This document shows, in pieces, positions 7,103 through 14,396 of a stretch of 33,616 nt of DNA (positions are counted from its first letter, which is position 1; each line of letters begins with the position of its first letter). Under the pieces are notes generated by a model. The model was not told the DNA's origin. It worked only from the letters and a program-made list of their open reading frames with translations, and searched no databases. The DNA is from Acidobacteriota bacterium. GTDB taxonomy: Bacteria; Acidobacteriota; Blastocatellia; Pyrinomonadales; Pyrinomonadaceae. The position numbers and the translations under genes are program-made. The stretch covers positions 1 to 33,616 of the forward strand of contig QHXI01000092.1 of the NCBI GenBank assembly GCA_003222895.1, given 5' to 3'.

Positions 7103-8513
7103 TCATGCTCCGATCTCGCTTGGACCAAATCAAATAAACAGGCAAGCCGATCAAGATCAATCCGAGTCCGATCGCGGATTGTTTTGGTGTGTTCCAAATC
7201 GTCGTCGCTATTAACCAGACGTTGACCACCAGGAAAATAATGGGCACGACCGGATAACCCCAGGTTCGATATGGCCGGTGCGTGTCAGGCAGACGGCGAC
7301 GAAAGATAAAAACTGATCCAGCGACGAAAGCGTAGAAGAGCGTCAGCGCGAAAATTGCCGAGTCAGTCAGCATGTCAAACGATCCTGAAAGCGCTAGAAC
7401 GCTCGACCAAACTCCCAACACGACGAGCGAACGAATCGGCACATGCGTGCGTGGCGAAACTTTAGCCAGGCCTTGAAAGAACAAACGATCGCGCGCCATC
7501 GCGTAAGGCACGCGCGAGGTCGCGAGAATCGAGGCGTGCAGCGCGCCGAACGAAGAGGTCATCATGGCCGCTGCGATGAGCGTCACCGCGACTGAGCCCA
7601 GCAAGCGCCTGACGACTTCCGCGGCGACGGATGAGGATGCCGCGACATTTGCGATCTGCGTCGGGGTGAGCACGTGGTAGTAGCTTGAATTCACCAGCAG
7701 GTAAAGACCCATCACGAGAAACATGCTGATGATTAGACCCAAAGGCAGGTTGCGCTCGGGATTCTTCACTTCCCCGGCAAGAAATGTGACGTTATTCCAA
7801 CCGTCATAAGCCCAGAGCGCGCCCAGCATTGCCGCGGCAAATCCCGCGAAACCTCCCGTCGTGATTGCGACCTTCGCGCACGCGCCGCCGGCGTTCGCTT
7901 GTGAGAGATGCGACCAGTCGCCACCGCTGTAGAAGAAAGCACCGACACCGATTCCGATCAAGAGCAGAACTTTGATTGCCGTCAGGAATGTAGCGACGCC
8001 GCCACTGAACCTAACTGCCGCGCAATTGATGATGACGGTGATACCGATTGCCAGGAGCGCAACCAACTGCAATCGGCCAAACGGAAGATCGTAACCGGCA
8101 GGATGCAGCGTGAAGTAAACGTGATTCAGGACACCGCCAAGAAAGTCGTTGAGAAAAATCGCGAATCCGACGGCCAGCGCCGCCGCCGAGGCGCTGCGCG
8201 CAATCGCGAATTGCGTCCAGCCATAAATGAATCCCCACGGTCGACCGTACGCATCGCGCATGATGCCGTACTCGCCCGCCGCGCGCGGAAACATCGCAAG
8301 CAGTTCCGCGTAGGTCAGCGCGCCTGCCAGCGATAGCAATCCCGCGACCAGCCAAACAGTCAAAGCCTTACCCGGCGTGCCGACGTTGCAGGTTATGACG
8401 CGTGCTTTCAGAAACACACCGGTGCCGATGATGTTCGCGACGTTGACGGCGATCGCCGCAGTAAGACCGAGGCCGCGAATAAGATCTGTGTGCTTTGAAG
8501 TTTCAGGTTTCAA
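7092..8513 (-). CDS. APC-superfamily amino acid permease
   Basis: The 473-residue protein is a 12-span APC transporter, most like the LAT/AAE group. The N-terminal IIGTGVFLKARVITC and AELLAMFPRAAGEYGIMRDAYG segments are hallmarks of substrate-binding helices 1 and 3 of the family. It should move amino acids across the inner membrane; specificity is not readable. The only available start is a TTG at 8511-8513, without a Shine-Dalgarno sequence, and an in-frame stop lies a few codons upstream. The first five codons (M-K-P-E-T) lie inside an IVP-type TTTCAAG repeat, so the native start may have been displaced by insertion. The downstream serine hydrolase overlaps and is likely cotranscribed. Confidence 0.92.
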   Translation of the reverse strand: MKPETSKHTDLIRGLGLTAAIAVNVANIIGTGVFLKARVITCNVGTPGKALTVWLVAGLLSLAGALTYAELLAMFPRAAGEYGIMRDAYGRPWGFIYGWTQFAIARSASAAALAVGFAIFLNDFLGGVLNHVYFTLHPAGYDLPFGRLQLVALLAIGITVIINCAAVRFSGGVATFLTAIKVLLLIGIGVGAFFYSGGDWSHLSQANAGGACAKVAITTGGFAGFAAAMLGALWAYDGWNNVTFLAGEVKNPERNLPLGLIISMFLVMGLYLLVNSSYYHVLTPTQIANVAASSSVAAEVVRRLLGSVAVTLIAAAMMTSSFGALHASILATSRVPYAMARDRLFFQGLAKVSPRTHVPIRSLVVLGVWSSVLALSGSFDMLTDSAIFALTLFYAFVAGSVFIFRRRLPDTHRPYRTWGYPVVPIIFLVVNVWLIATTIWNTPKQSAIGLGLILIGLPVYLIWSKRDRSMNEK

Positions 8514-8590
8514 GTTCGAGTTTCAAGTTCCATGTTTCAAGTTCCAAGTTAGTCTTGCTTGAATTTTGGTAGTGGGCTATTAGGAGTTGC
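8498..8590 (+). repeat. Gene-less remnant of a four-helix-bundle (IVP-like) element
   Basis: Positions 8500-8550 hold tandem GTTTCAAGTTC-type units. They are followed after a short AT-rich spacer by GGTAGTGGGCTATTAGGAGT at 8568-8587. Both parts occur inverted around the four-helix-bundle gene on the far side of the island: 8500-8516 matches 12920-12936 exactly (17 of 17), and 8568-8590 matches 12469-12491 at 21 of 23. Here the two parts are only about 50 bases apart and no gene lies between them, so this looks like a deletion derivative of the same element. Confidence 0.6.
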
Positions 8591-8607
8591 TACCCAAATT
8601 TGGTAGT

Positions 8608-8862
8608 TCATTCAATGTTGAACGCGAGACTAACTGCGACCGCAATAATTGAAAGCACTAGCGATAGAATCGATAGGACGAGTGACCAGTTGGACTGTCG
8701 AGCGGCGTCTCTCGCGGTTAATTGAGCGATGATGCGTGGGCGATCAACGTAGAAAGTACCAAGATCGCCAGGAACCGCAAGCGTGATCGGCGGGATGTTG
8801 TACTTGGTTCCAAGCTCGTCTAGCTCGTCATCCGTCATGCTCCAATAGTCTTTTTGAAACAT
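8608..8862 (-). CDS. Small tail-anchored membrane protein of unknown function
   Basis: The 84-residue product begins with an acidic, soluble part (MTDDELDELGTKYNIPPI, then a VDRPRIIAQLTARD segment). It ends with one strongly hydrophobic span (about residues 61-82) close to the C-terminus. This is a tail-anchored layout, so the soluble part should face the cytoplasm. It is the last gene of a three-gene minus-strand operon, starting 7 bases after the stop of the DUF1737-like gene. Its own ribosome site is weak, which suggests coupling to the gene before it. I recognise a recurring pattern of small island proteins with this layout but no characterised family. Confidence 0.7.
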   Translation of the reverse strand: MFQKDYWSMTDDELDELGTKYNIPPITLAVPGDLGTFYVDRPRIIAQLTARDAARQSNWSLVLSILSLVLSIIAVAVSLAFNIE

Positions 8863-8869
8863 GAGCTAC

Positions 8870-9100
8870 TTAGTCGCCAGCGGCGTGCATGAATTCAGAC
8901 ATCTCACGGCGAACCATTGCCTGAGAGTAACCCGAAACAGATTGCGGACTCTCGTCGCCTTCATAAGTGGCGAAATATTCCACAACCTTCAACTCCCCGT
9001 ACAATTCCCAGCCCTCGGCAAGTAAGCGGTTCACCTCTCTCGCCGTATCATCAGCAAAGCGGTTGCTTACGATTGAGTATTCAATGACCTTCCCCGCCAT
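8870..9100 (-). CDS. DUF1737-like small protein
   Basis: The 76-residue product has the short DUF1737 pattern: an initial beta strand (IEYSIVSN), a helix leading to VNRLLAEGWELYGEL, and a final strand reading SGYSQAMVRRE. The GWxxxG turn and the QAMV end are the recognisable parts. Members are small soluble proteins found in phages, plasmids and accessory regions; none has a settled biochemical role as far as I know. Its start codon overlaps the stop of the preceding gene (TAATG), so it is almost certainly translationally coupled to the 314-residue protein. It is the middle gene of the three-gene operon. Confidence 0.72.
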   Translation of the reverse strand: MAGKVIEYSIVSNRFADDTAREVNRLLAEGWELYGELKVVEYFATYEGDESPQSVSGYSQAMVRREMSEFMHAAGD

Positions 9101-10044
9101 TATGCCGCTCCTTTCGCTTTGGTATCCTCAAACTCAAGGTCACTTTCGGGAACGCCGGTATCGCTCTCCGCAATCTTCAAATAGTGTTTCCCGTCCGGCC
9201 CCTCGCCGAGATCGCCGATGACAGTCACAGGCTGATCATGGTCTTTGTTGTGCCAAGTCGCCATGCGTGGCTTATTCAGTTCCTCTACCGTAGGAAAGGT
9301 ATCTTTAGTGAGCCCTAGGTGCTGCATAAGCTTGTCAATGGCTTCCTGAGTGGCGTCACCAATGATCGTAACGCGCGCCTCGCTTCCGCGTGATAGCTTA
9401 AAGGCAAGCTCGGTCGTCTTGCTCGGCAGAGCAGGGGTTCCGTCCAAGTTATAAAACTGAACCAATGATGAAGGCGCGGGCGTCTTGGTTTGTGTGTTAG
9501 CGACTTGGGGTTGCTGCATCGGCGTCTCCCGTGCGGGCTTAGATTCACCTTCTGGCTTACCCGCGTCGGGCGCATTGTACTCCTTCGCCTCATCCGATAC
9601 AAACTTAATTGTTTCGCGATAGACGCGAATAGCCTCGTCAGCCGCCTTTGGCAAAAACTTCTTTTTTATCAGCGAATGCCTCAGGTTTACGTCACTAGGC
9701 AAATTGTCCCCAAATTCTTGTTTCAGATCAGCAAATAGCTTGGGAGTGAAAGCCCTTCGTCTAAGCGCAGCTACCCTTTCGGCGTGGCCCTTCGGTAGTT
9801 CGAGTATGGTCACGGCATCGCCGCCAACTTTTAGCCCGTCTCCTTCCGATTCAAGCAAACCATAGCTATTCAGTGCTCCAATCGTGGTCAGGGAAGCGCC
9901 ATTGAGGGATGTGTATCCCAAATCGCGCGCTATCACCTCCTTATCAGCGGCGTGAGTGTGCTCGGCCTGATAGACTTGGTTAATTTTGGTGATTGCCGTT
10001 TCAAGGTCAAATTTGGGGAAGTTCGGACTTCGTAGTTTAGCCAT
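9100..10044 (-). CDS. Unrecognised protein with a winged-helix-like N-terminus
   Basis: The 314-residue product can be divided by eye. Residues 1-85 have a helical pattern with DKEVIARDLGYTSLNGASLT and NSYGLLESEGDGLKV, which looks like a winged-helix DNA-binding or effector domain. Residues 85-155 are helical (ALRRRAFTPKLFADLKQEF). Residues 160-205 are a low-complexity Pro/Gln/Lys linker. The remainder is a beta-rich domain with HDQPVTVIGDLGEGPDGKHY. I do not recognise a named family for the full length. Start is firm: ATG with AAGGAAGGAG about 9 bases upstream and a plausible sigma-70 promoter at 10073-10102. It leads the three-gene operon, so it may bind DNA and control or act with the two small proteins. 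Confidence 0.75.
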   Translation of the reverse strand: MAKLRSPNFPKFDLETAITKINQVYQAEHTHAADKEVIARDLGYTSLNGASLTTIGALNSYGLLESEGDGLKVGGDAVTILELPKGHAERVAALRRRAFTPKLFADLKQEFGDNLPSDVNLRHSLIKKKFLPKAADEAIRVYRETIKFVSDEAKEYNAPDAGKPEGESKPARETPMQQPQVANTQTKTPAPSSLVQFYNLDGTPALPSKTTELAFKLSRGSEARVTIIGDATQEAIDKLMQHLGLTKDTFPTVEELNKPRMATWHNKDHDQPVTVIGDLGEGPDGKHYLKIAESDTGVPESDLEFEDTKAKGAA

Positions 10045-10072
10045 ATTTGCGGCTCCTTCCTTAACGCGATGA

Positions 10073-10102
10073 ACTTTACACCTAGCCCCGCGATAAAGTC
10101 AA
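10073..10102 (-). promoter_or_regulatory. Sigma-70-like promoter of the three-gene operon, with CGCGAT repeats
   Basis: On the minus strand, TTGACT (10097-10102) is followed after 18 bases by TAAAGT (10073-10078), about 30 bases before the ATG. CGCGAT occurs at 10065-10070, 10089-10094 and 10108-10113, and inverted at 10121-10126. The last pair forms a 6-bp inverted repeat with a 7-base gap. These could be operator sites for the island's XRE protein or the operon's first product; that link is inference. Confidence 0.5.
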
Positions 10103-10144
10103 TAGGCCGCGATGAAATAAATCGCGAATAGCGCGAATAACCAC

Positions 10145-10172
10145 TTGCATCTACGCGAAAGGCGAGTATAAT
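10145..10172 (+). promoter_or_regulatory. Strong sigma-70-like promoter for a noncoding leader
   Basis: TTGCAT (10145-10150), a 16-base spacer and a perfect TATAAT (10167-10172) lie on the plus strand, divergent from the three-gene operon. Transcription would begin near 10179 at ATTGAAAGG, about 275 bases before the transposase start, so a long structured leader or a separate small RNA would be made. Confidence 0.6.
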
Positions 10173-10178
10173 GCCTAC

Positions 10179-10318
10179 ATTGAAAGGCGGTCTTTGAATA
10201 AATGTTAGATATTTAGTTCCTTACGTTCACCGCTTTGCTTACCGGCGTGAGGGGCGATAACAAAGGAAGGCCCGCTCTGAGTTTCCCTGCGAAGGTATCC
10301 AGAACGGGCCGTGGTAAG
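10179..10318 (+). ncRNA. Candidate structured RNA A, upstream of the transposase
   Basis: The stretch follows the promoter at 10145-10172 and has no coding frame of note. It starts ATTGAAAGGCGGT. The AAAGGCGGT (10183-10191) can pair with ACCGCTTT (10229-10236) with one bulge. A second stem pairs GGCCCG (10269-10274) with CGGGCC (10305-10310), with a TCTG/CAGA extension, and is followed by a T-rich run that could act as a weak terminator. The ATTGAAAGG start and the first stem are shared in layout with the candidate at 12134-12413. The rest of 10319-10452, up to the transposase, shows nothing I can name. Confidence 0.42.
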
Positions 10319-10452
10319 TTTCTTATTTAGAAGCCCCGCCAGTTGCTTGTAACAGCTAGCGAGGCCATTGAAAACCTAAACGCGATTGCTCGCATTCAAG
10401 CTTCCGAACAAAAGCATTGTGAGCCTAATCGCAGAAAGAATCAAGGCTCATA

Positions 10453-11400
10453 ATGACGTGTCATAACTGCAAAGCACTCGCCCGAAAATTCGGAAAGAAC
10501 CGACAAGGCAAACAACGCTTCTACTGTAATACCTGTAAACGCGCGTTCATCGAAAGAACCGAAACACTCCGCGACGATCTCCGGCTGCCTTTGGATAAGG
10601 CTCTGCAATGCCTTCACATGCTCCTAGAAGGTTGCTCTATCAGAAGTGTGTCGCGTATGACTGGCGTTCACAAGCAAACGATCATGGACATGCTCGTGAT
10701 CGCTGGGGAGCGATGCGAGAAGCTAATGCAGGATCGGATCAAAGGGATTGCGGTCAAAGATGTTGAGGCCGACGAAATTTGGGGATTCATTGGTTGCAAA
10801 AATCGTCACAAACTTTACAAGGGGATCACCGATTCTAAAGTCGGCGATGCCTATACCTTTGTCGGCATCGAACGAAATACAAAACTGATTCTGGCATGGC
10901 ATCTAGGCGAACGCGGGATTGAGGACACAGAGGCTTTCACTGAGAAGTTGCACGAAGCAACAAGCGGGCGTTTTCAACTTACTACTGACGGCTGGCGTCC
11001 TTATGAATCCGCCGTCGCCTACTCACTAGGCACTCGCGTTGACTATGCGATGTTAATCAAAGTCTATGCAAAGGATCGCGAAGGCGAGCAAAAATATTCA
11101 CCGCCAGAAGTTATCGAGACGGTGACGAAGATTCAGATCGGCGATCCCGATCCGAGCCGCATCTGTACAAGCATTGTCGAACGCTCAAACCTGAGCATGA
11201 GAACATCGATTCGCAGACTGACTCGCTTAACGAATGCGTTTTCTAAGAAGTTGGAACATCTTAGAGCGATGTTGGCGTTGTACTTTGCCTATTACAACTT
11301 CTGCCGGATTCATTCCAGCATTAGGTGCACTCCCGCAATGGAATCAGGAATCACCGGCCACGTTTGGGAGCTTCGCGATCTCGTTTGCGCGGGCTACTAA
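10453..11400 (+). CDS. IS1-family transposase, single-ORF type
   Basis: The 315-residue product has an N-terminal zinc ribbon (C3-C6 and C25-C28) and a helix-turn-helix-like stretch (SIRSVSRMTGVHKQTIMDML). An IS1-type DDE catalytic domain follows: D107 in ADEIWGFIG, D179 in TTDGWRPYES and E243 in SIVERSNLSMR. The end, LTNAFSKKLEHLRAMLALY, matches the IS1 InsB C-terminus. Classical IS1 makes this protein by a -1 frameshift between insA and insB; here it is one uninterrupted frame, as in the ISMhu11-like branch. AAGG lies 6 bases before the ATG. No IS1-type terminal inverted repeats were found close by, so the gene may not be in a standard IS. Its stop overlaps the convergent XRE gene by 4 bases. 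Confidence 0.88.
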   Translation: MTCHNCKALARKFGKNRQGKQRFYCNTCKRAFIERTETLRDDLRLPLDKALQCLHMLLEGCSIRSVSRMTGVHKQTIMDMLVIAGERCEKLMQDRIKGIAVKDVEADEIWGFIGCKNRHKLYKGITDSKVGDAYTFVGIERNTKLILAWHLGERGIEDTEAFTEKLHEATSGRFQLTTDGWRPYESAVAYSLGTRVDYAMLIKVYAKDREGEQKYSPPEVIETVTKIQIGDPDPSRICTSIVERSNLSMRTSIRRLTRLTNAFSKKLEHLRAMLALYFAYYNFCRIHSSIRCTPAMESGITGHVWELRDLVCAGY

Positions 11401-11726
11401 TCGGACAGGTCTAGCTTGTCGTCAATCAGGTTTTCGACGTGCACTTTCGCTAATCTTGCATAGCGCAGCAAGGTCAAAAGATTTGGTTCGCGCGTACCGT
11501 GTTCATAGGCTGATATGACCGTGTAGGCTTTCTTTAGTTTCAGAAGCTTTGCCATCTCTGTTTGACTCGCTTCGAGTCCCTTCCGAATAGCCAGCAATTT
11601 CCGGTGTAAGCGTTTTGGTCTTTCTCGCGGTGGTTTACCCTTGCGGCTGTTCCCGTTTGTATATACACTGTGCGCCGATTTAGAGGATGTCCGGTGCGCC
11701 CGTTTGGTTCGGGCGCGAATCGTCAA
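11397..11726 (-). CDS. XRE-type helix-turn-helix regulator
   Basis: The product is up to 109 residues and has a Cro/CI-like HTH in its second half. RKGLEASQTEMAKLLKLKK forms helices 1-2, followed by YTVISAYEHGTREPNLLTLL and YARLAKVHVENLI, a standard XRE end. The first ~45 residues are very basic (RPKRLHRK and others) and may be disordered or contact DNA. The start is uncertain: the longest frame begins with TTG at 11724-11726, with a GAGG about 11 bases upstream, and no ATG precedes the HTH. It lies tail to tail with the transposase, with a 4-base overlap, so the two transcripts are antisense at their ends. A role as island repressor is inference. Confidence 0.75.
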   Translation of the reverse strand: MTIRARTKRAHRTSSKSAHSVYTNGNSRKGKPPRERPKRLHRKLLAIRKGLEASQTEMAKLLKLKKAYTVISAYEHGTREPNLLTLLRYARLAKVHVENLIDDKLDLSD

Positions 11727-11781
11727 CCAGTAGAACCTCGCGCTTTAGTCAACATCATGATCGGTCAGGTCTGCACAGAAT

Positions 11782-11897
11782 ACGGGAGCAGAGAGTAAGT
11801 AGGCAAGGTGGGAATTGCCGAAACCATACTCCCGTTTGAGCGGGGAAGCCCTTGGGGGCGTTGCAGGGTACGACGCTCGCCGACTTCCCCGCTTTTA
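11782..11897 (+). ncRNA. Structured stretch ending in a terminator-like hairpin
   Basis: Two adjacent structures are visible. First, ACGGGAG (11782-11788) pairs with CTCCCGT (11829-11835) around an inner GGCAA/TTGCC hairpin (11802-11819). Second, AGCGGGGAAG (11839-11848) pairs perfectly with CTTCCCCGCT (11884-11893), enclosing a further GCGTTG/CGACGC pairing. The second stem runs into TTTT, so on the plus strand it could end transcription that passes through the transposase gene. No good promoter was found directly upstream, so a leader or terminator is as likely as a stand-alone RNA. Confidence 0.4.
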
Positions 11898-11904
11898 GAA
11901 ATCA

Positions 11905-12126
11905 ATGTACGTCGTATCTCTCAGCGATCCGGTCTATCACATTGCGAAGGATGAACACTTCACGCTCTGCATGATAAGGATTCATGGTGATCCCGGTCGC
12001 CGTCGCCGCTGGCAGGATCGTAGATTAGTGGGCGAGAAACCTACTGGACGGTTTGCTGTGCTTTGTTCGGAGTGTGAGAGAATAGCCGCGCAATCTGATT
12101 TTTCAAATCTCACTAAGAGCGTATAA
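11905..12126 (+). CDS. Small Cys/His-containing protein, unknown
   Basis: The 73-residue frame starts at an ATG 8 bases after the TTTT of the upstream hairpin, with no convincing Shine-Dalgarno sequence. The protein has His and Cys residues spaced like a small metal-binding unit (HIAKDEHFTLC, then LCSEC) and a basic middle (GRRRRWQDRR). Similar short proteins ending in a CxxC knuckle occur in accessory regions, but I do not recognise a family. Its last codons and stop overlap the -10 box of the promoter for RNA candidate B (TATAAT at 12122-12127), so transcription of one may interfere with the other. Coding status is only moderately secure. Confidence 0.45.
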   Translation: MYVVSLSDPVYHIAKDEHFTLCMIRIHGDPGRRRRWQDRRLVGEKPTGRFAVLCSECERIAAQSDFSNLTKSV

Positions 12127-12127
12127 T
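12100..12127 (+). promoter_or_regulatory. Promoter for structured RNA B
   Basis: TTTTCA (12100-12105), a 16-base spacer and a perfect TATAAT (12122-12127) are followed 4 bases later by ATTGAAAGG. The spacer length and the motif just after the -10 box repeat those of the promoter at 10145-10172. Confidence 0.5.
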
Positions 12128-12133
12128 CCAGAT

Positions 12134-12413
12134 TGAAAGGGGGTACACTGCCAATGAGGAAGCTTACAGCTTACCTTATGAGTCTACCCCGCCGCCAATT
12201 GTGCAGGTACTGAACGGGGTTAGGGCCGAATCAGGCTAGGCTTTCAGTTCTTGCCGCAGGGTCTCGCGAGACTGCGCACTTCATAGCCCTAGCCGAGGTC
12301 AGGGCGATGCTCGGAGAGAGGGGGCCCAAAAGCTAGAGCGATTGAATAAGGCCAATTGGCAAACCTGATGTAGGAGCCGGTAAGAGGGCCTTGCTTCCGG
12401 CTCCGAAACTTTT
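12134..12413 (+). ncRNA. Candidate structured RNA B with own promoter and terminator
   Basis: About 280 bases without a convincing gene lie between a promoter (12100-12127) and a terminator (12373-12413). Visible stems are four. GGGGTA (12140-12145) pairs with TACCCC (12185-12190). Inside it AGGAAGCT (12157-12164) pairs with AGCTTACCT (12168-12176), with one bulge and a 3-base loop. GGCTAGG (12234-12240) pairs with CCTAGCC (12288-12294). Inside that is a GTCTCGCGAGAC hairpin flanked by GCA and TGC. It shares its first bases and 5' stem layout with candidate A. I do not recognise a known class; it is not tmRNA, RNase P, 6S or a group II intron domain V by eye. Confidence 0.5.
12373..12413 (+). 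terminator. Rho-independent terminator of RNA B
   Basis: GGAGCCGG (12373-12380) pairs perfectly with CCGGCTCC (12397-12404), and AAG/CTT extends the stem inward past one bulge. The run after the stem is GAAACTTTTATTCTTTT, which is T-rich though it starts 5-6 bases after the stem. Confidence 0.65.
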
Positions 12414-12435
12414 ATTCTTTTCAGTGCCACGCATT

Positions 12436-12491
12436 GACCCACTATGGCCCATGATGCCCCACTATCCTGCAATCCCTAATAGCCCACTACC
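12436..12491 (-). repeat. TAGTGGG-type repeat at the 3' end of the four-helix-bundle gene
   Basis: Read on the minus strand, the unit TAGTGGG occurs three times: just at the gene's stop (the stop TAG is part of the first unit), then around 12457-12465, then around 12438-12445, with related GGGCCAT units between. The first unit extends to 23 bases (12469-12491) that are matched, inverted, at 8568-8590 with 21 of 23 identical. Confidence 0.6.
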
Positions 12492-12876
12492 TGAATTTTG
12501 TTCTTTTGAGACCTGATTTCTTTAAGTAGGTCATTAGTCCGCTAAGCATCCTACTAATGTCGGTGACACCTGCAATAAGTGGGTCAAATAGGACTTGGCT
12601 TATGTACCCTTGATCAAGCGCGACATACAACTGCGATCTGACTTCGCCTGCGGATCCCTTCGCCGTGGCGAGAAAGTGAGCAAATTCTCCTGTGCCACTT
12701 CGTTCAAAGCCTTCGGCAATATTCGACATTATTGAAACGCTGGCACGACGAATTTGATCCTTGAGGCCAAAGTCCCTTGCGAAATCGCCTTTTGACGTTA
12801 TCTTGTAAATCCTGTTGGTTAGTTCGCGCGAGCGCTGCCAAGCGTCGATGTCTTCGAATCTATTGAACGTGGCCAT
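12487..12876 (-). CDS. Four-helix-bundle protein (23S rRNA IVP-like)
   Basis: The 129-residue product is a four-helix-bundle protein of the kind encoded by intervening sequences in 23S rRNA genes and related to the Avd accessory protein of diversity-generating retroelements. Recognisable parts are FEDIDAWQRSRELTNRIYK, FGLKDQIRRASVSIMSNIAEGFER and FLATAKGSAGEVRSQLYVALDQGYI. The start at 12874-12876 is chosen because GGAGG lies 5 bases upstream; a longer frame from a TTG at 12963 would only translate the flanking TTTCAAG repeat. It does not lie in an rRNA gene, and no reverse transcriptase is nearby. It is enclosed by TTTCAAG repeats upstream and TAGTGGG repeats downstream, which together look like a small element inserted 3 bases after the lysA stop. 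Confidence 0.9.
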   Translation of the reverse strand: MATFNRFEDIDAWQRSRELTNRIYKITSKGDFARDFGLKDQIRRASVSIMSNIAEGFERSGTGEFAHFLATAKGSAGEVRSQLYVALDQGYISQVLFDPLIAGVTDISRMLSGLMTYLKKSGLKRTKFR

Positions 12877-12919
12877 GTACACCTCCGAGGGAGAAACAGA
12901 TGAAAAAGCCGGTCGAAAT

Positions 12920-12950
12920 AACTTGAAACCTGAAACGTTGAACTTGAAAC
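12920..12950 (-). repeat. TTTCAAG-type repeat upstream of the four-helix-bundle gene
   Basis: On the minus strand the stretch reads as tandem GTTTCAAGTTC/GTTTCAGGTTTCAAG units. Bases 12920-12936 are the exact inverted match of 8500-8516. The repeat lies between the lysA stop and the ribosome site of the four-helix-bundle gene. Confidence 0.65.
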
Positions 12951-12956
12951 CACCTC

Positions 12957-14396
12957 TTACCAAACATCATTCATCAGCAGATCCTCGTATGTATCGCGCT
13001 TCCTAATCAGGTCCGCCCGGCCACCATCTCGCACCATCACGGCCGCCGGCAACGGCCGCCCGTTGTAAGGAAACATTTGCGCCAGCGAGTACGCTCCCGA
13101 ATTCAAGAGCGCGAGCACTTCACCCGGCTTCACGTCGCGCGGCAACAGACGATAGTCGGGCAGGCGTCCATGGCGCTCGATGTCGAAATAAACGTCGCCC
13201 GAATCACAGAGCGGCCCGGCAACTTTGTATTGCGCATCCGCGGAAGTGCACGCGCGTGACGCGGAAATCAGATGGTAGTACCACTTGTAATTGTTCATCG
13301 ACAGCAGCAAGTTGTAACCCGCATCCGTCAACAACCAAATGTCATTCGTTTCCGGACGGCGCTTGATGTTCTGCACTTTCGTGAGCACAACCCCCGCGTC
13401 AGCGATGACGCTGCGGCCAGGTTCAAGCAGGATGGTGACTTGATCCAGCAAGTGCTCTGCCTGCGCATCTCGCGCCGCTTCACGCGCTACGCGCAATGCC
13501 TCTGTCAGAACGTCGGAAGGTTCAAGCTCTGCGCCGAGCATGTCGCGCTCGTGCTCCGGCAATTGATCGGCTTGCGATCGATCGCGCAGATAATTCACCG
13601 GGATGCCGCCGCCAAGATTGATGTGCTCGAGCGTCAGGCCGGTTTCGCGATGAATCGTCATGAGATGATTCCACATGCTCTTGAAAGCTTCAGCGAACGG
13701 TTCGACGTCAGGTGTTTGCGATCCCACATGAATGTGAATGCCGCAGACGTGAATCAAATCCGGATTTTGCAAACCCCGGCGAAAGGCATCGAGAACTTCT
13801 GACGAAGAGATGCCGAACTTTGAAGTTAGCAGCGCCGTCTGCAATCCGAGATGCGACCGGGTGCCGATTTCCGGAACCAGACGCAAAGCGATTCGCGCCG
13901 GCGGTAATCCCGTATTCAATTCGCTGCGTGCGCGCCGCATTGCGTCTTCGACTAATTCAATCTCGTAGATCGAATCGACATTGATCGAATAGATGCCGGC
14001 GCGCACCGCTTCATCTAACTCGTCATCCGTCTTACTTGTGCCGTTGAAAATGATCTGGTCGGGACGAAAGCCCGCGCGCAACGCCTTGAAGAGTTCGCCG
14101 CCGCTGTTGACTTCAATGTCGATGCCCGCATCGCGCACGACGCCAAGCACCGCCATGTTTGAATTAGCTTTCGATGCGTAGCAAAACTTGATCGGTCGAT
14201 CGACTTTTTTTGCGGCGGCTTGTAATCGAGCGATGTTCGCGCGAATGCGTGACTCGGAAAAAACAAACAGCGGCGTGCCGTATTGGTAAGTGAGCGCGGT
14301 CGCGTCGGCGGCGCTGATGAAAAGATGATTGTTATCGCGCGCTTCAAGAAAGCCCGGGATGGTCCAGGCGGGCGCATTAGTTAGTACTGAAGACAT
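12957..14396 (-). CDS. lysA: Diaminopimelate decarboxylase
   Basis: The enzyme decarboxylates meso-diaminopimelate to L-lysine with pyridoxal phosphate, the last step of the pathway, in the cytoplasm. The fold III decarboxylase signature is complete. K76 in FCYASKANSN forms the Schiff base, HIHVGSQ and GGGIPVNY bind the cofactor phosphate, and EPGRSVIADAG follows. CDSGDVYF carries the Cys of the active site contributed across the dimer, and GAYSLAQMFPYNGRPLPA is the usual C-terminal block. At 479 residues it is longer than the usual ~420; an insertion near RDRSQADQLPEHERDML explains part of this. AAGGA lies about 6 bases before the ATG. The IVP-like element begins right after its stop. Related PLP decarboxylases for arginine or ornithine are a less likely alternative. 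Confidence 0.9.
   Translation of the reverse strand: MSSVLTNAPAWTIPGFLEARDNNHLFISAADATALTYQYGTPLFVFSESRIRANIARLQAAAKKVDRPIKFCYASKANSNMAVLGVVRDAGIDIEVNSGGELFKALRAGFRPDQIIFNGTSKTDDELDEAVRAGIYSINVDSIYEIELVEDAMRRARSELNTGLPPARIALRLVPEIGTRSHLGLQTALLTSKFGISSSEVLDAFRRGLQNPDLIHVCGIHIHVGSQTPDVEPFAEAFKSMWNHLMTIHRETGLTLEHINLGGGIPVNYLRDRSQADQLPEHERDMLGAELEPSDVLTEALRVAREAARDAQAEHLLDQVTILLEPGRSVIADAGVVLTKVQNIKRRPETNDIWLLTDAGYNLLLSMNNYKWYYHLISASRACTSADAQYKVAGPLCDSGDVYFDIERHGRLPDYRLLPRDVKPGEVLALLNSGAYSLAQMFPYNGRPLPAAVMVRDGGRADLIRKRDTYEDLLMNDVW

Follow-up and report, generated by a model that had tools for sequence, protein, structure and literature searches.

An IS1-like passenger transposon encloses the flagged stretch

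The window analyzed here (the whole 33,616-nt stretch of DNA) contains an IS1-like passenger transposon, and within it lies a stretch that the initial annotation described as a complete promoter-RNA-terminator cassette for an unknown structured RNA (Table 1). That annotation mentioned neither the transposon nor the structured RNA candidate R2 located 200 nt upstream. The borders of the element were placed by inverted repeats (8562–8590 and 12469–12497) that resolve to GGTAGTGGGCTATTAGG... ends at 8568 and 12491. Both features of IS1-family ends, terminal inverted repeats and a short target duplication, are present. Target duplications in this family are usually about 8–9 bp. The element also resembles IS1-family and passenger transposons in its DDE transposase, which carries an IS1-like signature and similarity to the N-terminal zinc-binding domain. 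Unlike IS1-family elements, it spans 3.9 kb with passenger genes and non-coding stretches, and its transposase scores 97.9 bits against the NCBIfam transpos_IS1 model (cut-off 100) and 27 bits against transpos_IS1595 (cut-off 75). Relatives of the transposase were found in 63 of 162 genomes of the class.

Table 1. Features of the transposon and related places in other loci
Feature	Coordinates	Strand	Remarks
Left target-site duplication, TGAATTTT	8560–8567		
IS1-like passenger transposon, 3,924 bp	8568–12491		Contains flagged stretch; inverted repeats, 8-bp duplication, transposase
Left terminal inverted repeat, GGTAGTGGGCTATTAGGAGTTGC	8568–8590	+	
Transposase, IS1-like, 315 aa	10453–11400	+	Pfam DDE_Tnp_IS1, 39.4 bits (cut-off 24.1)
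XRE-type HTH regulator, 109 aa	11397–11726	−	Pfam HTH_3, 25.7 bits
Structured RNA candidate R2	11778–11897	+	
Small three-cysteine ORF, 73 aa	11905–12126	+	Conserved; non-conserved tail carries promoter-like hexamers
Promoter-like hexamers, TTTTCA-16-TATAAT	12100–12127	+	Consensus match only
Flagged stretch	12132–12413	+	Orphan, non-coding, possible RNA
5′ hairpin	12140–12190	+	Sole sub-region with notable fold (z −2.98 for 12136–12196)
Terminator-like hairpin	12373–12413	+	Faces right end of transposon; T-run 5 nt past stem
Subterminal right-end sequence	12437–12466	+	Common to other elements of the genus (L011, 93% over 30 nt; L008, 86% over 28 nt)
Right terminal inverted repeat, GGTAGTGGGCTATTAGGGATTGC	12469–12491	−	
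Right target-site duplication, TGAATTTT	12492–12499		Exact 8-bp copy of left
Other R2 places	L008 5948–6067; three in L010 (G001 contig C5); L009 (G001 contig C14)		
Other members of small ORF family	L008 6074–6292; L049 4307–4552; L046 7225–7491; L010 4879–5103 and 2220–2435 (minus)		

Three further ORFs on the minus strand of the transposon had no match in Pfam, NCBIfam, or PADLOC, and one of them matched weakly a PHROG of unknown function. The element is inserted at the end of a gene for a four-helix-bundle protein (23S_rRNA_IVP, 12487–12963). We also noticed inverted GTTTCAAGTTC-type repeats at 8500–8544 and 12919–12950, flanking the four-helix-bundle gene.

A conserved three-cysteine gene and its candidate RNA neighbor

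The passenger gene closest to the flagged stretch codes for a 73-aa protein without a match in Pfam, NCBIfam, PHROGs, or PADLOC. Its relatives (85, 55, and 42% identity) occur in 2 of the 162 genomes of the class, and two more were identified in the related genome G001, one read by eye and added to the profile and the other retrieved with that profile (E 4e-22). The comparison with the nearest copy, on contig C104 of the same genome, revealed 13 synonymous and 5 non-synonymous differences over 58 codons. Therefore, the ORF is under selection and represents a real gene. The five aligned members of the family all share cysteines 22, 54, and 57, and the motifs TLC and LCxxC are likewise invariant; that the cysteines bind zinc is a guess. 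By eye, members of the family often diverge from an XRE-type gene (L008, L046, and L049).

Resemblance to the C104 element breaks off sharply at 12076, within the tail of the 73-aa ORF. In C104, the order of the modules differs: the small gene is followed directly by the transposase, in the opposite orientation, and not by the flagged stretch. Because the C104 gene precedes a transposase instead, the flagged stretch lies outside the conserved module.

Upstream of the small gene, R2 folds into two hairpins, one of them terminator-like with an internal loop (GCGGGGAAGCCCTTGGGGG...CTCGCCGACTTCCCCGCTTTT). The fold has a z-score of −2.75 in the window and −3.24 in the C104 copy. Three additional copies are on contig C5 of G001 and one is on contig C14 of the same genome. 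A covariance model of R2 retrieved six full-length places in 2 of the 162 genomes, and five of these six had seeded the model; a third genome gave a partial match that was weak (24.9 bits, E 0.009). Across the five full copies, 96.1% of the pairings in the 31 pairs are standard, and both partners have changed in 5 of the pairs. The paired cells, the doubly changed cells, and the covariation score all exceeded 500 of 500 shuffles, whereas 26 of 500 shuffles reached the observed number of doubly changed pairs and 435 of 500 the number of pair types. Since the structure was derived from the tested alignment and five related sequences may beat shuffles without any structure, we take the covariation as support rather than proof. 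No Rfam family matches R2. An integron attC site was also considered, by eye against the attC consensus, and dropped.

The small cysteine ORF lies downstream of four of the six R2 copies, at a distance of 7 nt in the window, 6 nt in the C104 element, and about 240 nt for two of the G001 copies. A third copy in G001 sits upstream in a tandem arrangement; around the C14 copy, the locus read contains no small cysteine ORF. Conversely, the family members in L046 and L049 lack an R2 match at the corresponding place. All R2 copies found in the 162 genomes belong to one genus. R2 is a better-supported candidate for a new RNA than the flagged stretch and is the item of the window that deserves follow-up.

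Fold and sequence marks of the flagged stretch

The flagged stretch begins 1 nt past the stop codon of the small gene. As the initial annotation proposed, it contains no convincing gene: the ORFs that overlap it are short (26, 32, 57, 39, and 41 aa), and the 57-aa minus-strand ORF, the one compared with protein families, had no match in PHROGs. The stretch also matches no RNA class in Rfam. None of 4227 Rfam families reached its curated threshold anywhere in the window, relaxing the search to E values up to 10 yielded a single chance match outside the flagged region, and no tRNA or tmRNA was predicted in the window. We rejected the idea that the stretch is a copy of R2, the best score of the R2 model being 7.0 bits for a match that overlaps the start of the region (12070–12184, E 0.28).

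As a whole, the stretch folds barely better than chance. The fold of 12132–12415 has a z-score of −1.34 on the plus strand, with 14 of 200 shuffles folding equally well, and −1.11 on the minus strand. Four pieces were then evaluated, all picked after the whole fold was seen; the piece 12136–12196 was matched by 3 of 200 shuffles, and the others had z-scores of −0.95 (12196–12310), −1.14 (12200–12330), and −1.36 (12360–12420). Among the nested stems proposed initially, the 5′ hairpin with its inner stem (12157–12176) and the GTCTCGCGAGAC palindrome are present, but a stem at 12234–12294 is missing from the minimum-energy fold. The middle hairpins are weaker than the 5′ hairpin. A second region named in the same annotation (10179–10320) folds with a z-score of −0.49.

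The proposed terminator has an 8-bp perfect stem formed by GGAGCCGG (12373–12380) and CCGGCTCC (12397–12404), but its T-run is broken (GAAACTTTTATTCTTTT) and starts 5 nt after the stem. With a loop of 16 nt, the hairpin was omitted by the program's terminator scan. It is the one terminator-like hairpin of the window under our own definition, against 0.9 expected, and the program's scan of 8500–13000 found 2 terminator-like sites against 5.1 expected. Between the hairpin and the subterminal repeats are 32 nt.

The promoter-like hexamers are where they had been reported, but all of the −35 and the larger part of the −10 fall within the end of the small gene, the −10-like hexamer overlapping its stop codon. 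Because the similarity to C104 ends at 12076, the −35-like hexamer is in the non-conserved tail of the gene. With a promoter in a gene end and a T-run detached from its stem, to call the stretch a complete cassette was an overstatement. Chance levels for both kinds of marks were computed on first-order Markov sequences. The window has 4 promoter-like sites matching at least 10 of 12 positions (3.4 expected) and 1 with an exact TATAAT (0.45 expected); considering the transposon alone, a site of the latter kind occurs in 13% of random sequences. The program's scan of 8500–13000 returned 5 promoter-like sites (4.2 expected). Each mark by itself is, therefore, ordinary. The two together on one strand within 300 nt are uncommon, at a roughly estimated 0.002 per window, a figure that is the product of the two chance rates under a criterion set after the data were seen.

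We also observed the sequence ATTGAAAGG(C/G)GGT at 10179–10191 and 12132–12144, both times a few bases past a TATAAT, a recurrence that may be due to chance. The first copy is upstream of the transposase, and the two are identical at 12 of 13 nt.

Searches for relatives

We found no convincing homologue of the flagged stretch in the collections searched. Within the genus, blastn retrieved the stretch from its own genome only (1 of 7). In the 162 genomes of the class, with scoring limited to the top 3 preliminary candidates of each genome, nothing matched within 12077–12436 beyond the locus itself. In 396 genomes of the phylum, with 2 candidates scored per genome, matches were at chance level (37 genomes besides its own at E ≤ 0.1; best E 9.5e-4). 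Phages (E 1e-5) and plasmids (E 1) gave no match, and exact 35-, 22-, and 32-mers were absent from viral contigs. A local blastn search of the loci fetched (98, minus 4 that contain the window itself, and 12 more added later) returned only the preselected places and the own locus. The other transposon loci fetched contain no match to the stretch, which therefore belongs neither to the machinery of transposition nor to the components common to this transposon family.

A covariance model (R1) was built from one sequence entered twice and spans 12136–12310 only; because it is built on a single sequence, it is weak for distant relatives. R1 retrieved no convincing relative from the 162 genomes, a search run under stricter filters, and across 49 loci it scored 219.5 bits for its own locus and 9.8 bits for the next-best match. 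Run unfiltered on nine loci representing weak places of the phylum search (L090–L098), it gave 23 matches at E values up to 10. The best non-self match, and the best candidate against the absence of homologues, is L095 1429–1555 (18.2 bits, E 0.0034 in one run and 0.0068 in another). We take it for chance because it overlaps two ORFs (206 and 210 aa) in sequence with 70% G+C, has several broken pairs, and was preselected from 396 genomes.

A probable non-coding tail at the transposon end

With somewhat more confidence than doubt, we read 12127–12436 as a non-coding tail that closes the passenger module at the right end of the IS1-like transposon. The tail would span from the stop codon of the small gene to the right-end repeats. 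The 3′ hairpin (12373–12404) probably ends transcripts arriving from the small gene, and termination at this site would keep transcription from leaving through the transposon end. Both the terminator activity of the hairpin and the transcripts it would act on are inferred; its detached T-run weakens the terminator itself and, with it, this reading. The promoter-like hexamers in the tail of the gene most likely match the consensus by chance or mark a weak start of transcription inside the gene. The transposon borders with their 8-bp duplication, the real gene upstream, the break in similarity to C104, promoter counts at chance, and a whole fold near chance count in favor of a tail; on the other side are the exact TATAAT site and terminator-like hairpin on the same strand less than 300 nt apart and a 5′ hairpin whose fold beats those of 197 of 200 shuffles. 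The stretch resembles 3′ untranslated regions that carry intrinsic terminators in its position directly after a stop codon, its lack of a frame, and the hairpin near its end, but it has a promoter-like site at its start. It is also longer than usual 3′ untranslated regions.

The same marks could belong to a passenger gene that encodes an independent small RNA, the main alternative though a rather unlikely one, in which a folded transcript of about 280 nt starts from 12100–12127, ends at 12373–12413, and acts in trans or via a 19-codon ORF (12154–12213, read by eye inside the ORF 12133–12213). Promoter-like hexamers, hairpins, and a terminator-like hairpin come in the order seen in bacterial small RNA genes that have a promoter and an intrinsic terminator of their own. 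The frame-free interior and the 5′ hairpin would fit such a gene, and R2, the better-supported RNA candidate, is nearby in the same transposon. The 13-nt sequence after TATAAT also speaks for it, although short two-copy repeats often arise by chance. Unlike such genes, the stretch has no detected homologue, a near-chance fold (whole-fold z −1.34), hexamers at chance counts with the promoter in a gene tail, and a detached T-run. Nor does it pair with the transposon's own transcripts better than random sequences do (best −106.5 against a median of −113.3 for 30 random sequences in a crude scan), and an antisense role against these transcripts was rejected. Improbable, in our estimate, is that rearrangement between transposons left the stretch behind as functionless debris, either a decayed gene or a fragment that had been captured. 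The break in C104 similarity at 12076 and the differing module order look like the aftermath of a rearrangement, and no collection searched held a match, but no protein remnant was recognizable in the comparison made, that of the 57-aa minus-strand ORF with PHROGs. An unknown structured RNA is, in sum, less likely than an ordinary non-coding tail. A promoter and a terminator read by eye do not suffice to claim a new RNA; homologues and context are needed first. The flagged stretch itself is of little consequence.

A broader and doubtful proposal is that two unrelated RNA genes, R2 upstream and an orphan RNA (12132–12413) downstream, flank the small cysteine gene and form a mobile regulatory module. 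If true, passenger transposons of these little-studied bacteria would carry lineage-specific RNA genes, an idea for which R2 is a testable object.

The passenger transposons of the genus (the element in the window and those in L008, L011, and L047) have similar ends but differ in cargo and module order, as if their modules had been shuffled. The cargo in L011, for example, resembles by eye a restriction-modification specificity gene. ARAGORN predicted tRNA genes near such transposase loci in L048 (4189–4272 and 5055–5131) and L046 (8940–9029); the types are Gly (ccc) and Asn (gtt), with Pro (agg) in L046, and one of them looks unusual by eye.
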